Shown here one piece after another: positions 36,203 through 56,475 of a DNA stretch of 64,000 nt. Origin of the DNA: Acidimicrobiales bacterium (GTDB taxonomy: Bacteria > Actinomycetota > Acidimicrobiia > Acidimicrobiales > SZUA-35); assembly GCA_028285495.1 (NCBI GenBank), contig JANQPB010000001.1, positions 62,001 through 126,000 on the forward strand, written 5' to 3'. Within the stretch, counting starts at the first letter, position 1; the number at the start of each line of letters is the position of its first letter. The notes beneath the pieces were generated by a model. That model searched no databases. It was not told the DNA's origin and saw only the letters and a program-made list of their open reading frames with translations. The translations under genes and the position numbers were made by a program.

Positions 36203-37360
36203 CTAGTTGTCGAGCACGTCACCAACCGAGATCGGGCCGTCCGGGCGCCAGAAGGCGCCGTCGGGGAAGAAGGTGACGTAGTCCTCGGGGAACGACGTGA
36301 ACCCGGGCAGGCGATCGAGGTCCTGGTCGGTGCCATCGATCCCGAGCCCGGTCGCCGGGTCCCAGCGCCCCGGCCCGTCGACCTCGATCAGCACCGCACC
36401 ACCGGCCGCGGTGGAGCCGTCGGCGCCGTCGAGCCGGAGCTCGACCGTCCGGTCGTCGAGCAGGCGGGAGAGCACCGCCCAGTTGTCGGTGCCGGGGTCG
36501 ACGACAACGGCGATGGCGACGTCGCCGACGGTCGAGTTGGCCACCCCGACCTGGCGGACGTCGGGCACCGGGTGGGCGACCGATGCGTCGCCGAGCTCGA
36601 CGACGACCGCCAGCTGGTCGACGGCGAAGCCGCTGATGTCACCGGGGGCGGCGAGGGCGAACGACTCGGGGTTGTTCTCGAGCCAGTCGCCCCAGGTGGT
36701 CAGCGTCGATGGCAGCAGCTCGAGCCGGGCCCCGGTGAGCGGGCCGATGATGGCCTCACCCCGAGGCTGGCTCCACACGCTTCCGGTCTCGTGGTCGAAC
36801 CAGGTCATGGCGTTGCCGAACAGGGCCCCGTAGTTGCCGAGCACGATGGGCCGACCGTCGATCTCGCGGCGATGGACCATCGCCGTGCCGCACAGCGGTC
36901 ACCAGGTGACGAACGTCGGGATCCCCCGGTGCAGGTCGACGACGATCTCCCGCCGGTTGAGGAAGGCGACCGGGTAGGCCCTGGCCTCGCCCTCCAGGTC
37001 GACGCCGATGATCAGCTCGTCCGGTTGCCAGCCGGCGTCGTCGGCCAGCACGAACCGCGGTTGGTAGACCGGCAGGATCTCGTCGTGGTCGAGGACCCGG
37101 CGCCAGGCTCCGTCCGGGATCGGCTCGCCGGCCTCGACGGGGTCGAACAGGTCGTCGGGCAGGCGACCGGAGACACCCTGGAACCCGTCCGGGTGGAACG
37201 AGCCGTCCGGGCTGGTCTCGAACACCGGGTCCGACCAGGTGCAGGCCGAGACGAGGAGGACCAGGGCGCCTGCGATGACCAACGGGCCGGCCAGGAGGGG
37301 GAACGTGCGGACCGGTGGGGAGAGGAGAACCGGTGTCGACTTCGGCCGGCCCGTGGTCAT
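36203..37360 (-). CDS. DUF3179 lipoprotein, probable selenoprotein with UPLC motif (in-frame TGA at 36899-36901)
   Basis: 385 residues if TGA is read as selenocysteine. The signal peptide ends LLVSAC, a lipobox with Cys40. The DUF3179 domain includes DELIIGVDLEGEARAYPVAF and RREIVVDLHRGIPTFVTW, and then TGA at 36899-36901 (residue 154) followed by P-L-C-G-T-A-M. DUF3179 proteins have T-Y-C-P-L-C-G-x-A here, so the TGA is at the first Cys of the CPLC motif; Cys157 is kept. The frame continues with GRPIVLGNYGALFGNAMTWF and HETGSVWSQPRGEAIIGPLT, both family landmarks, and a C-terminal extension of about 100 residues. An 8-bp hairpin with loop GUC follows the TGA. Function of DUF3179 is unknown; Sec at this site argues for a redox-active dithiol. 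A conventional gene finder would split it in two. Confidence 0.87.
36867..36885 (-). promoter_or_regulatory. SECIS-like hairpin downstream of the DUF3179 TGA
   Basis: CGGCGAUG pairs perfectly with CAUCGCCG around a 3-nt GUC loop. The loop starts 22 nt after the TGA. The apical sequence GGUC also occurs at a similar distance in the E. coli fdhF SECIS as I remember it, where the G and U contact SelB. The position, stability and loop fit a bacterial SECIS well. Confidence 0.68.
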
Positions 37361-52260: not shown

Positions 52261-52283
52261 CTCGGGCCTCGGGAATGCCCGAG
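52261..52283 (+). terminator. Hairpin after the Coq4-like gene
   Basis: CTCGGGC (52261-52267) pairs perfectly with GCCCGAG (52277-52283), with a 9-nt loop, 17 bp past the stop. No T-tract. Confidence 0.5.
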
Positions 52284-52298
52284 TCGGCTCCGCCGTTT

Positions 52299-52325
52299 CA
52301 ATACACAACTGTACTGTTACTTAAC
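52299..52325 (+). promoter_or_regulatory. AT-rich promoter/operator before the DJ-1/PfpI gene
   Basis: CAATACACAACTGTACTGTTAC and the following TTAAC lie about 25 bp before the ATG. GTACTGT contains the reverse complement of the ACAGTAC seen at 49733. A regulator shared with the neighbouring genes is possible. Confidence 0.45.
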
Positions 52326-52345
52326 TTGCACTCGGAGGATTCGAG

Positions 52346-53092
52346 ATGACCGCATCGATCAGCATCGCCAACCCGCAACGGCCGAAGAGGGTCCTGCTCC
52401 TGGCGTCCAACCCGTCGGTCTCGGAGCAGACCGGTTGGCCAATCGGGTTCTGGTTGGCCGAGCTCACCCATCCGTACTGGGAGCTCACCGAGCACGGCTA
52501 CGAGGTCACGATCGCCAGCCCCGACGGCGGCGCCATCGTGCCGGACGCCTACAGCGACCCGGAGGACGACTCGGGCTACTCGGCCGACGACCTCATCAGC
52601 CTCGGCTTCACGCACAACCCGTCCACCGCGGCCCTCATCGAGCAGACGGTGCCACTGGCCGACGTCGACCTCGACGGGTTCGACGCCGTCTTCCTCGCCG
52701 GCGGTCAGGCCCCGATGTACACCTTCGTCGGCGACGAGCGGGTCCACCGTCTGGTCCGGGACAGCCTCGAGGCCGGCAAGCCGACCGCCGTGGTCTGCCA
52801 CGCCACCGCCGTCCTGTTGACGGCGACGACCAGCGAGGGAGCGCTGCTCGTCGGCGGCAAGACCTGGACCGGCTTCGCCGACGCCGAGGAGGCCGTCGCC
52901 GACGAGGCCGTCGGCCAGCGGATCCAGCCCTTCTGGATCGAAGAGGAGGCCCGGAAGCTGGAGGGCACCAACTTCATCGTCAACTCGCCGTTCCGCTCGT
53001 TCGCGGTTCGCGACGGGAACCTGATCACCGGGCAGCAGCAGTACTCGGGCGCGGCGGCGGCCCGCCTGATCATCGAGGCCCTCGGTGTCTGA
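52346..53092 (+). CDS. DJ-1/PfpI-family protein (Hsp31/glyoxalase III-like)
   Basis: 248 residues. The class I glutamine-amidotransferase-like fold starts RVLLLASNP and includes FDAVFLAGGQAPMYTF (112-127). The nucleophile elbow is AVVCHATAVLL with Cys151-His152, and Glu-rich helix LIEQ lies upstream. ASPDGGAIVPDAYS resembles the Hsp31/glyoxalase III branch, which removes methylglyoxal or repairs glycated proteins. A GGAGG-like ribosome site lies before the ATG. The ABM-like gene overlaps its end by 8 nt. Confidence 0.9.
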   Translation: MTASISIANPQRPKRVLLLASNPSVSEQTGWPIGFWLAELTHPYWELTEHGYEVTIASPDGGAIVPDAYSDPEDDSGYSADDLISLGFTHNPSTAALIEQTVPLADVDLDGFDAVFLAGGQAPMYTFVGDERVHRLVRDSLEAGKPTAVVCHATAVLLTATTSEGALLVGGKTWTGFADAEEAVADEAVGQRIQPFWIEEEARKLEGTNFIVNSPFRSFAVRDGNLITGQQQYSGAAAARLIIEALGV

Positions 53093-53699
53093 CCGCGAGG
53101 TGCCGACCGGCTCCGAGGGTGGCGACCCGGTCCACCGGCCGGACCGAACGGTCACCACCGTCGTGACCCGCACGGTGAAGCGAGATCGGCGGGGCGACTA
53201 CGAGGCCTGGCTCCATCGCCTGCTGGCCGAGGCCGAGCGGGTCGACGGCTACGCCGGGGCCGAGGTCCACCCGCCGGCCCCCGATGCGGACCCGGCGGTG
53301 TACACCAGCGTGTTCCGCTTCGACACCCTGGCCCAGCTCCGGGCGTTCGAGGCGAGCGAGCTGCGGCGACGGGCGATGGACGAGGTGTCGGACCTCGTCG
53401 AGACCGACGCCGTCTGGCGGACCCACACCGGCCTCGAGCTGTGGTTCGACCCACCGCCGGGCACGGTGGTGGCCCAGCCGGTTCGGTGGCGGATGGCGCT
53501 GCTCCTCGGTCTGGTGGTGTACGTGCTGGTGCTGGTGTTCGGGGCGGTGGCCTCGGCCACGATCGGTGGGTTGCCGTTCGCCCTCCGGCTGGCCCTGGTC
53601 ATCGCCGTCGAGATCACGCTGATGACCTACGTCATCCTGCCGTGGTCGACTCGCCGGCTGGCCCGCTGGATCTACCCGACGACGGCGACGGTGACCTGA
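53085..53699 (+). CDS. ABM-domain membrane protein
   Basis: 204 residues. An N-terminal antibiotic-biosynthesis-monooxygenase-like domain (about 22-115; TVVTRTVKRDRRGDYEAWLH and YTSVFRFDTLAQLRAFEASE) is followed by two membrane helices (about 137-158 and 165-188). This ABM-plus-two-helix layout is common in bacteria but of unknown function. It starts at a GTG overlapping the DJ-1/PfpI gene by 8 nt, so they are translationally coupled. Confidence 0.83.
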   Translation: MSDREVPTGSEGGDPVHRPDRTVTTVVTRTVKRDRRGDYEAWLHRLLAEAERVDGYAGAEVHPPAPDADPAVYTSVFRFDTLAQLRAFEASELRRRAMDEVSDLVETDAVWRTHTGLELWFDPPPGTVVAQPVRWRMALLLGLVVYVLVLVFGAVASATIGGLPFALRLALVIAVEITLMTYVILPWSTRRLARWIYPTTATVT

Positions 53700-53740
53700 T
53701 CGTCGGCGGCGCCGTCGGGGCGGCTGGCGACCGACCGGCG

Positions 53741-54631
53741 TCACCCCGAGTAGTCGGCCTCGAGCGACTGGATCTCGCCGACGCCGATCAGCTCGGTGAA
53801 GTCGGCGAACGCCGGGAGCGAGTCCTGAGCCACCATCGGGGTTCCGTGCTCCCGGATGCTGGCCAGCACGTGCTGCATCGCCTGGGTTGCGGCCAGCAGC
53901 GTCCCGATCGGCATGATGATCAGCCTGTAGCCGAGCTCGGCCAGGCGCTCGTGGGGCAGCGGCGGCGTCTTGCCCCCCTCGACCCAATTGAACACCAGCG
54001 GGATCCCGGCCAGCTCCTTGGCCACCAGCTCGATCTCGTCGACGCCGGTCAGGGCCTCGACGAAGAGGGCGTCGGCCCCGGCGGCGGCGAAGCGGTTGGC
54101 CCGGTCGAGGGCGTCGTCGAGCCCGTTCGGGGCCCGGGCGTCGGTGCGGGCCACGAGGACGAGGTCGGGGTTGGTCCTGGCGTCGACCGCGGCCCGGATC
54201 TTGGCCTCCATCTCCTCGGTCGCGACGACGGCCTTGCCGTCCATGTGTCCGCACTTCTTCGGCAGCACCTGGTCCTCCAGGTGGAGGCCGGCGACGCCGG
54301 ACCGCTCGTACTCCTGGACGGTGCGGACGACGTTGATCGGGTTGCCGTAGCCGGTGTCGGCGTCGGCCAGCACGGGGAGGTCGGTGGCGGCCACGATGCG
54401 GCGGGCGTTGTCGACCATCTCGCCGAGGCCGAGCAGACCGACGTCGGGCCGGCCGAGGAGGGAGGCCGCGGTACCGAAGCCCGTCATGTAGACCGCATCG
54501 AAGCCGGCCTGCTCGACGAGGCGGGCCCCGAGGGCGTCGTAGCAACCGGGGAGGAGGACCGGGTCGGGGCCGGCGAGCTGGCGGCGGAGGGCGGCGGGTC
54601 CATCGGGGCGGGTGCGGAGCAGGTCGGCCAT
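53741..54631 (-). CDS. Isocitrate lyase/PEP mutase-superfamily enzyme
   Basis: 296 residues. The TIM-barrel signatures are LLPGCYDALGARLVEQAGFD, LADADTGYGNPINVVRTVQE, the metal-site LEDQVLPKKCGHMDGK (the KKCGH loop carries the catalytic Cys) and LVARTDAR. This places it among 2-methylisocitrate lyase, oxaloacetate decarboxylase and phosphonopyruvate-type enzymes. The chosen ATG (MADLLRTRPDG) fits family length. It diverges from the isochorismatase gene with 113 bp between, so a metabolic link is possible but unproven. Confidence 0.9.
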   Translation of the reverse strand: MADLLRTRPDGPAALRRQLAGPDPVLLPGCYDALGARLVEQAGFDAVYMTGFGTAASLLGRPDVGLLGLGEMVDNARRIVAATDLPVLADADTGYGNPINVVRTVQEYERSGVAGLHLEDQVLPKKCGHMDGKAVVATEEMEAKIRAAVDARTNPDLVLVARTDARAPNGLDDALDRANRFAAAGADALFVEALTGVDEIELVAKELAGIPLVFNWVEGGKTPPLPHERLAELGYRLIIMPIGTLLAATQAMQHVLASIREHGTPMVAQDSLPAFADFTELIGVGEIQSLEADYSG

Positions 54632-54744
54632 GGCCCAAGCGTAGGTTGGCCGGGGCGACGGCCCGGAAACCGTCTCCGTGTCGTCTGGCCGCCCGGGAGA
54701 CCGGCCGGGCCTCGATCGAGCGCAACCCACTACGGTCTTCGGCC

Positions 54745-55380
54745 ATGGACGGTGAGACCGACAGCGAGCTGGCGGAAGACTACCGGGGGGCTGGGTTCAA
54801 CCGCCGGCTCGGGTTCGGTGAGCGGCCGGCCGTGGTCGTCGTCGACATGTGCCGGGCCTACTTCGAGCCGGACTCGCCGCTGTTCGCCGGCGTGCCCGAC
54901 GTGGCCGACCGCTGCCGGGACCTGGTGACCGCCGCCAGGTCCGCCGGGGTGCCGGTGCTGTGGACCCGGGTCGAGTTCGAGCCAGGCGGGGCCGATGGCG
55001 GCGTCTTCTACCGCAAGGTCAGGGCGCTCTCGGTCTTCGATCGTGGCGGACCGCTCGGTGACTGGCTCGATGGCCTGGCCCCCGAGCCAGGCGACGTCGT
55101 CGTCACCAAGCAGTACGCCTCGGCGTTCTTCGCCACCTCGCTGGCCTCCAGCCTGGTCAGCCTCGGCGTCGACACCACCGTCATCTGCGGCGTGTCCACC
55201 AGCGGCTGCGTGCGAGCAACCGCCCTCGATGCGTGCCAGCACGGCTTCGTGCCGATCGTGGTCGCGGAGGCCTGCGGCGACCGCAATCCCGACGTGCACC
55301 GGGCCAACCTGTTCGACCTCGACGCCAAGTACGCCGACGTCGAGCCGATCGAGACCGTGCTGGCCAACCTCGCATCCTGA
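54745..55380 (+). CDS. Isochorismatase-family cysteine hydrolase
   Basis: 211 residues. The catalytic triad is Asp34 in VVVDMCRAYF, Lys122 in VVTKQYASAFF and Cys155 in GVSTSGCVRATALDA. The sequence is close in style to N-carbamoylsarcosine amidase and RutB (ureidoacrylate amidohydrolase). It is followed within 50 bp by a RutA-like monooxygenase and a flavin reductase, so it may hydrolyse a ring-opened ureido product. TACGGT 8 nt before the ATG suggests a leaderless start for the operon. Confidence 0.88.
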   Translation: MDGETDSELAEDYRGAGFNRRLGFGERPAVVVVDMCRAYFEPDSPLFAGVPDVADRCRDLVTAARSAGVPVLWTRVEFEPGGADGGVFYRKVRALSVFDRGGPLGDWLDGLAPEPGDVVVTKQYASAFFATSLASSLVSLGVDTTVICGVSTSGCVRATALDACQHGFVPIVVAEACGDRNPDVHRANLFDLDAKYADVEPIETVLANLAS

Positions 55381-55429
55381 GTCGACCCCCGGCCCGGCAC
55401 CAGCCGACGGTGGCTGCTAGAACCACCGG

Positions 55430-56475
<1,046 letters not shown>

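Follow-up and report, generated by a model that had tools for sequence, protein, structure and literature searches.

A gene of the DUF3179 family in the genome of an Acidimicrobiales bacterium raises the question of what its cell makes of a stop codon that falls in the middle of an otherwise open reading frame. The gene lies within the stretch of 64,000 nucleotides analysed here (the window), and is broken by a single TGA at the place where relatives carry the first Cys of a C-P-L-C motif. DUF3179 appears as a predicted selenoprotein family with the motif UxxC/T in Table 1 of PMC9312934 and in the corresponding entry of PMC13188914, and both reviews cite Zhang and Gladyshev 2007 for it; a passage in an Idiomarina genome paper also mentions it. 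The selenoprotein character of the family is thus not new, having been predicted in both reviews and being reflected in three relatives named '(seleno)protein', while searches of the literature on selenoproteins in Acidimicrobiia, or on Rieske-like folds and DUF families, listed nothing on this protein. Set beside the table entries of the reviews only, the gene described here is like them in belonging to the same Pfam family (PF11376) with predicted Sec at the first CxxC position, and unlike them in representing an actinobacterial clade, with Chloroflexota relatives, that has a SECIS element of its own. What is new is how deep this clade runs, a Cys copy that retains the SECIS and is accompanied by a Sec copy, the truncated state of 103 of the 120 public relatives listed, and a tandem fold, as predicted, that is Rieske-like without having the cluster ligands. 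A one-line table entry (DUF3179, UxxC/T, predicted) thereby becomes a documented clade with a testable RNA signal.

The interrupted frame and its product

The elements of the gene that concern its frame and its N-terminus are the following:

36203..37360, minus strand: DUF3179 gene, 385 codons with one TGA read through; PF11376 at 161.6 bits
36899..36901, minus strand: the TGA within the frame, predicted to encode selenocysteine as residue 154, the U of U-P-L-C
36890..36892, minus strand: codon for Cys157, the second residue of the UxxC motif, which does not vary among the 84 rows aligned
37238..37288, minus strand: stretch predicted to form a hydrophobic helix at the N-terminus (residues 25-41), including Cys40 of the lipobox-like VSAC

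The frame runs from an ATG at 37360-37358 to a TAG at 36205-36203 and encodes 385 residues with a single internal stop, in the context F-V-T-W-U-P-L-C-G-T-A-M-V-H-R-R; the calculated mass is about 41 kDa for the whole product and about 17 kDa for one that would end at the UGA. The first-pass annotation of this DNA had described exactly this frame, broken only by the TGA between V-T-W and P-L-C-G-T-A-M, and had left out that the gene occupies the minus strand. The start codon is not certain, as no clear Shine-Dalgarno site precedes the ATG. With 161.6 bits against a Pfam gathering score of 27, the product belongs to PF11376, the sole Pfam family that matches the 385 residues at an E-value of 0.001; no NCBIfam model scored above its cut-off. 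The same annotation had called the product a lipoprotein, a label that suits this copy, with its lipobox-like V-S-A-C, but does not extend to the group at large: such a Cys, as judged by eye, is present in 7 of 16 orthologs, this copy included, and the other nine are without it.

Conservation of the UGA among relatives

Of the 298 genomes of the order that were searched, 82 had matches, and the best 16 matches, which come from 13 genomes, contain a TGA, while the other listed matches, two distant ones excepted, do not. In these 16 orthologs (the gene itself and 15 others), whose proteins are 36-78% identical in pairs, with a mean of 50%, the TGA falls in one and the same column in every case; the extra TGA or TAG codons seen in some rows mark the end of the gene or lie ahead of its start. 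The best stop-free match (G295) has TGC at the site, in T-W-C-P-V-C-G-S-A, and TGC is also found at the site in all six DUF3179 paralogs of the gene's own genome, in the motif [YF]C[PT]LC. These paralogs are 25-29% identical to the Sec gene, and none of the six offers at least six pairs at the place of the SECIS hairpin described below.

A wider scan of named genomes, which overlaps with the ortholog set, was followed through its best 80 of 99 loci, and of the 79 that cover the site 69 have TGA, six TGC and four TGT. Among the best 80, 49 are labelled as Acidimicrobiia- or Acidimicrobiales-type MAGs (47 with TGA, two with TGC) and 14 as Chloroflexota-type (six with TGA, eight with Cys); a few labelled Nitriliruptorales, Acidobacteria or Spirochaetaceae may be binning errors. 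The Sec-form genes of the Chloroflexota-type MAGs are L157, L159, L160, L161, L163 and L164. After six of the 79 loci were dropped for a short upstream or downstream part, 66 of the remaining 73 were aligned with P0002 and 17 protein records; in the resulting 84 rows, columns 154 and 157 are invariant throughout, Sec being scored as Cys.

The proposal that TGA takes the place of the first Cys of the CPLC motif is borne out by the recurrence of the codon in 16/16 orthologs and 69/79 loci, which rules out a sequencing slip. The gene also agrees with the usual criterion for a bacterial selenoprotein, namely that a UGA within the frame lines up with a Cys conserved in homologs. None of the homologs aligned across the TGA stops there, a point on which the earlier proposal could have failed; the sequence runs on, and in ten pairs of close relatives dN/dS ranges from 0.06 to 0.27 upstream of the UGA and from 0.07 to 0.19 downstream, so that purifying selection is seen to act both before and after it. 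Two departures from the common pattern were met along the way: the full-length relatives P0063 and P0086 have W-C-S-V where others have W-C-P-L, and a Cys-form DUF3179 protein (L080:5823-7502) carries a C-terminal Laminin_G_3 (concanavalin A-like) domain.

The hairpin behind the UGA

36867..36885, minus strand: predicted SECIS hairpin with a stem of 8 pairs and GUC as its apical loop (36877-36875), the loop lying 21 nt from the UGA

Thirteen nucleotides past the TGA, the DNA reads CGGCGATG-GTC-CATCGCCG (36885 to 36867), which as RNA, CGGCGAUG-GUC-CAUCGCCG, forms eight perfect pairs; the bSECIS-like hairpin with a GUC loop that had been noticed at first sight is exact. By the bSECIS rules used here, taken from the legend of Fig. 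2 of PMC13188914, the element has what is expected, namely a 3-nt loop with G in first position, eight pairs, and a distance of 21 nt from the UGA. Folding of the 45-nt stretch from the UGA onward gives -18.2 kcal/mol.

Taken alone, such a hairpin is weaker evidence than it appears. When the gene's own peptide is recoded synonymously, an equally long stem turns up in 0.4% of draws with its own codon usage and in 4.7% with pooled usage. The peptide A-M-V-H-R tends to encode such a stem, so that the hairpin by itself is no more than moderately surprising. In a lax search for seven pairs anywhere within the allowed range, performed on distinct 60-nt stretches, a stem was found in 67 of 72 TGA sequences (the five failures being four Chloroflexota sequences and the ortholog L077) versus 15 of 35 Cys relatives. 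The hairpin as sole evidence was consequently rejected, since both recodings and Cys relatives give comparable stems.

What is decisive is the conservation of the hairpin at one place. At that exact position, 64 distinct main-clade TGA sequences form a mean of 7.95 of eight pairs, against 5.50 for recoded peptides, whose mean never exceeded 5.92 over 400 replicates, and at least seven pairs are formed there by only three of the 35 Cys relatives, L132 (see below) among them; relatedness inflates this contrast somewhat, yet the orthologs average 50% identity. The presence of a conserved RNA hairpin behind the UGA makes decoding as selenocysteine very likely, judging from comparative sequence data.

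Codon choice follows the same pattern. Among the 16 orthologs, codons for the same residue are identical at a rate of 0.73 in a 12-codon window beginning at position -2, against a background of 0.44, which places this window first among 274; where orthologs keep the residue, Thr159 is ACG in 16/16, Ala160 is GCG in 15/15 and His163 is CAT in 15/15. Pairing is kept in 97.7% of cases in the 16 sequences, within which no double change occurs and shuffles are uninformative. With 65 sequences, 99.4% of 520 pair cells are paired, three cells being unpaired, and compensatory double changes are found in L142 and L157 only, at two neighbouring pairs each, with pairing kept; in L142, two residues at this place differ from the common peptide. 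The observed values were reached in 0-1 of 500 shuffles of the 65 sequences, a result that is optimistic in that the rows are related.

A covariance model run on the gene's own genome, where 150 of 13944 first-look candidates were scored, gives 67.7 bits at the place of the hairpin, 20.4 bits on its own reverse strand and 18.4 bits at the next other place. In selD, in a formate-dehydrogenase-like gene and in the DUF3179 gene alike, the fold that follows the UGA has GGUC at its apex. The actinobacterial hairpin does not fit well behind the UGA in five of the six Chloroflexota loci, L157 being the exception.

Selenocysteine machinery and other UGA genes

A search of the genome for the selenocysteine genes, whose absence would have spoken against the proposal, found all of them. 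The assembly (6.75 Mb in 45 contigs) contains a tRNA-Sec with anticodon TCA (64.8 bits, above the cut-off, in a search that covered this genome alone), selA (403.7 bits) and selB (272.4 bits), each above its cut-off and adjoining one another on contig C8, and selD (352.8 bits), which itself has an in-frame TGA at G-A-G-U-A-C-K. Another gene, on contig C10, has a TGA within C-N-R-T-U-H-A-P-S; it is labelled here just 'formate-dehydrogenase-like' because its 82.8 bits to TIGR01553 lie below the cut-off.

Across the order, selA scores above its cut-off in all 13 genomes with TGA orthologs, versus 175 of 298 genomes overall. Of the 39 genomes of the family, 13 have a TGA inside the DUF3179 match, and each of these also has a TGA-bearing selD, while none of the six genomes without a selD match has a TGA-containing DUF3179 match; in this count the TGA may lie anywhere in the match for newly seen genomes, and some genomes are incomplete.

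Several observations on the distribution of these genes may be recorded at this point. About 2.6 kb separate the formate-dehydrogenase-like TGA gene (C10, near 52270-56432) from a DUF3179 gene of the Cys form (L093), and in the same genome (G000) the TGA-bearing selD (C34:101680-104300) lies about 1 kb from another such Cys-form gene (L028). Among the 39 family genomes, selD is found within about 3 kb of a DUF3179 gene only in G000, G317 and G323, the two genes being some 3 kb apart in the latter two. The use of Sec, to judge by selA, looks common in the order, as against the statement in a review that it is rarely retained by aerobic bacteria.

Proposed mechanism and predicted fold

Taken together, these data suggest a sequence of events in which the hairpin would act as a SECIS element, its GGUC apex, with the same four letters as in selD and the formate-dehydrogenase-like gene, would be bound by SelB, and Sec would be inserted at position 154 by the genome's own SelA, SelB, SelD and tRNA-Sec. 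The product would then leave the cytoplasm and be retained on the outside of the membrane. There U154, with its selenol, and C157, with its thiol, would sit on a turn that joins two strands of the first Rieske-like repeat and could serve as an extracytoplasmic redox pair, alternating between the selenol/thiol and the selenenylsulfide states; the second of the two repeats is without such a site. We assign a probability of roughly 0.87 to this proposal. On this reading the CxxC of DUF3179, so far unexplained, would have a definite role open to testing, that of a redox centre, as had been surmised from the outset.

The two repeats are the following:

36683..36994, minus strand: first repeat, residues 123-226, carries UxxC; its model resembles Rieske domains
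36287..36592, minus strand: second repeat, residues 257-358, without UxxC; its model resembles Rieske domains

At the sequence level, comparisons of this protein with solved structures and with other Pfam families gave nothing significant. For the model of the first repeat, Foldseek alone gave no significant match and no Rieske majority, and a second look with VIA-align gave a Rieske majority; thioredoxin-type folds do not figure among the structural matches listed, which excludes nothing. An attempt to say which residues fall on the Rieske cluster boxes was dropped, as the structural comparisons yield residue ranges and not coordinates. The closest known structural systems are Rieske-fold proteins, including Rieske ferredoxins, the NirD-like small subunit 4aiv and the small subunit of arsenite oxidase, whose architecture the predicted tandem fold resembles without possessing their cluster ligands: the pattern C-x-H...C-x-x-H occurs in none of the 84 rows. 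Genomic context, explored as three genes on each side in 25 neighbourhoods with a simple ORF caller, revealed no general partner or operon. A gene of one family lies upstream on the opposite strand in three neighbourhoods (NicO by Pfam in the one tested), similar ABC ATPases are found nearby in five (four tested by Pfam), and MurJ lies directly upstream in two.

The alternative that survives best accepts the UGA as Sec and holds that U154 and C157 are ligands for a soft metal ion or for a cofactor, and not a redox pair. The UxxC/CxxC motif would suit metal binding as well, the modelled repeats resemble a metal-cluster fold, and E138, D189 and H190, invariant in the 84 rows, could provide additional ligands. 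This reading nevertheless has to contend with the lack of the Rieske ligand pattern in all 84 rows, and with the UxxC/T of the table entries in PMC9312934 and PMC13188914, in which the second Cys may be Thr and which argues against a fixed two-ligand metal site, although in the 84 rows of this work the residue is always Cys. The replacement of Cys by Sec, moreover, usually signals redox catalysis. Metal binding is considered rather unlikely, and the redox pair is retained as the preferred reading.

Termination, read-through and the public records

Three further alternatives deny that the UGA encodes Sec. The first treats it as a real stop, with the part that follows translated alone and the upstream part separate or dead:

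36203..36880, minus strand: 225-residue ORF (MVHRR...), starting seven codons past the TGA; the form found in public records

This ORF exists, with its ATG at 36880, and the public databases favour it: out of 120 listed relatives (282 were found), 103 start with M-V-H-R-R, and P0003 is the 225-residue fragment of the very gene described here. The upstream part, however, is under purifying selection too, with the dN/dS values of 0.06-0.27 given above for ten pairs, and Cys homologs read straight across the site. The codon at the position of the ATG is TTG in two of the 16 orthologs, and is something other than ATG in five of the six Chloroflexota TGA loci and in L083 and L084 (see below). The ATG also lies within the hairpin, with no Shine-Dalgarno site seen ahead of it. 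Termination at the UGA is accordingly very improbable, and with the UGA read as Sec the public records of these relatives would be mostly headless, the likely active-site residue being absent from the annotations in 103 of the 120 listed. The other 17 are longer and are printed with Cys at the site; three of them, P0028, P0030 and P0038 (Acidimicrobiia / Ilumatobacteraceae), bear the name 'DUF3179 domain-containing (seleno)protein'. These three share the tree clade of the gene and are 48-50% identical to it, and differ from it in the Cys printed at the site, known from protein records alone.

It is no more probable that a near-cognate or reassigned tRNA reads the UGA as one of the ordinary amino acids. 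Low-level suppression could affect any UGA, but six of the 16 orthologs (the end being seen in 15) use TGA as the terminator of this same gene, which indicates that UGA is not a general sense codon, and ordinary read-through leaves aside both the sel genes of the genome and the structured element conserved behind the UGA. Lastly, the idea of a pseudogene or of an assembly error, for which one could invoke the single assembly of 45 contigs and the six intact Cys paralogs, is refuted by the conservation of this TGA, which recurs in 16 orthologs and at 69 named-genome loci (overlapping sets), by the lack of any other stop in the frame and by the purifying selection on both sides in relatives, and is left with a negligible probability.

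Exchange between Sec and Cys

The history of the site was followed on a tree with 72 Sec and 32 Cys rows (104 in all), built by a quick method with the site itself masked, which does not give the direction of changes; of its 101 inner branches, 38 are starred and 31 open. Sec and Cys change places 13 times on this tree, against 27.6 times in shuffles, and at least seven of these changes are forced by starred branches. A clade of 78 rows (support 81, not starred) contains 64 Sec rows with 14 Cys rows scattered among them, 13 of which, however, belong to the 17 Cys rows taken from protein records, in which the codon is not visible.

One case of exchange is visible in the DNA, in L132, from an Acidimicrobiaceae MAG (L132:5761-8061), where a DUF3179 gene with TGC at the site keeps all of its eight SECIS pairs and scores 54.9 bits, while a second DUF3179 gene, about 1.15 kb downstream on the same strand, has TGA and scores 62.9 bits; the two copies are identical at 177 of 332 aligned residues. 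The simplest reading is that the Cys copy is a Sec gene that reverted to Cys, its hairpin being likely a SECIS fossil. This tandem provides material on Sec/Cys exchange, to be set against the view expressed in PMC13188914 that changes from Sec to Cys are rare and documented mainly for FdhA and SelD.

A second potential trace concerns residue 164, which in the 84-row alignment is R or S in 56/56 main-clade Sec rows and in 16 of the 19 Cys rows outside Chloroflexota. It had been considered whether 'MVHRR' could be an unambiguous SECIS scar in Cys forms, an idea weakened by the presence of R at this place in the distant Cys relatives L048, L056, L061 and L064 as well; R or S in Cys rows is thus only suggestive of a former SECIS. 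In a broader scenario, which we put forward as distinctly tentative, DUF3179 would be a duplicated Rieske-type fold that lost its Fe-S ligands and shifted its chemistry to a selenol/thiol pair at a different turn of the barrel, becoming an extracytoplasmic selenoenzyme in which Sec and Cys were exchanged many times, also back to Cys, with SECIS fossils left behind in Cys genes.

A second subfamily is formed by L083 (G096:C37) and L084 (G128:C10), from another family of the order, which have a TGA at the site within the motif T-Y-U-x-V-C-S-S-G. Their hairpin, with nine pairs and a GUUU loop 22 nt from the UGA, is unrelated to that of the main clade, from which their rows stand far apart in the tree; this distance suggests that Sec probably arose more than once at the DUF3179 site, in which case L083 and L084 would represent an independent origin.
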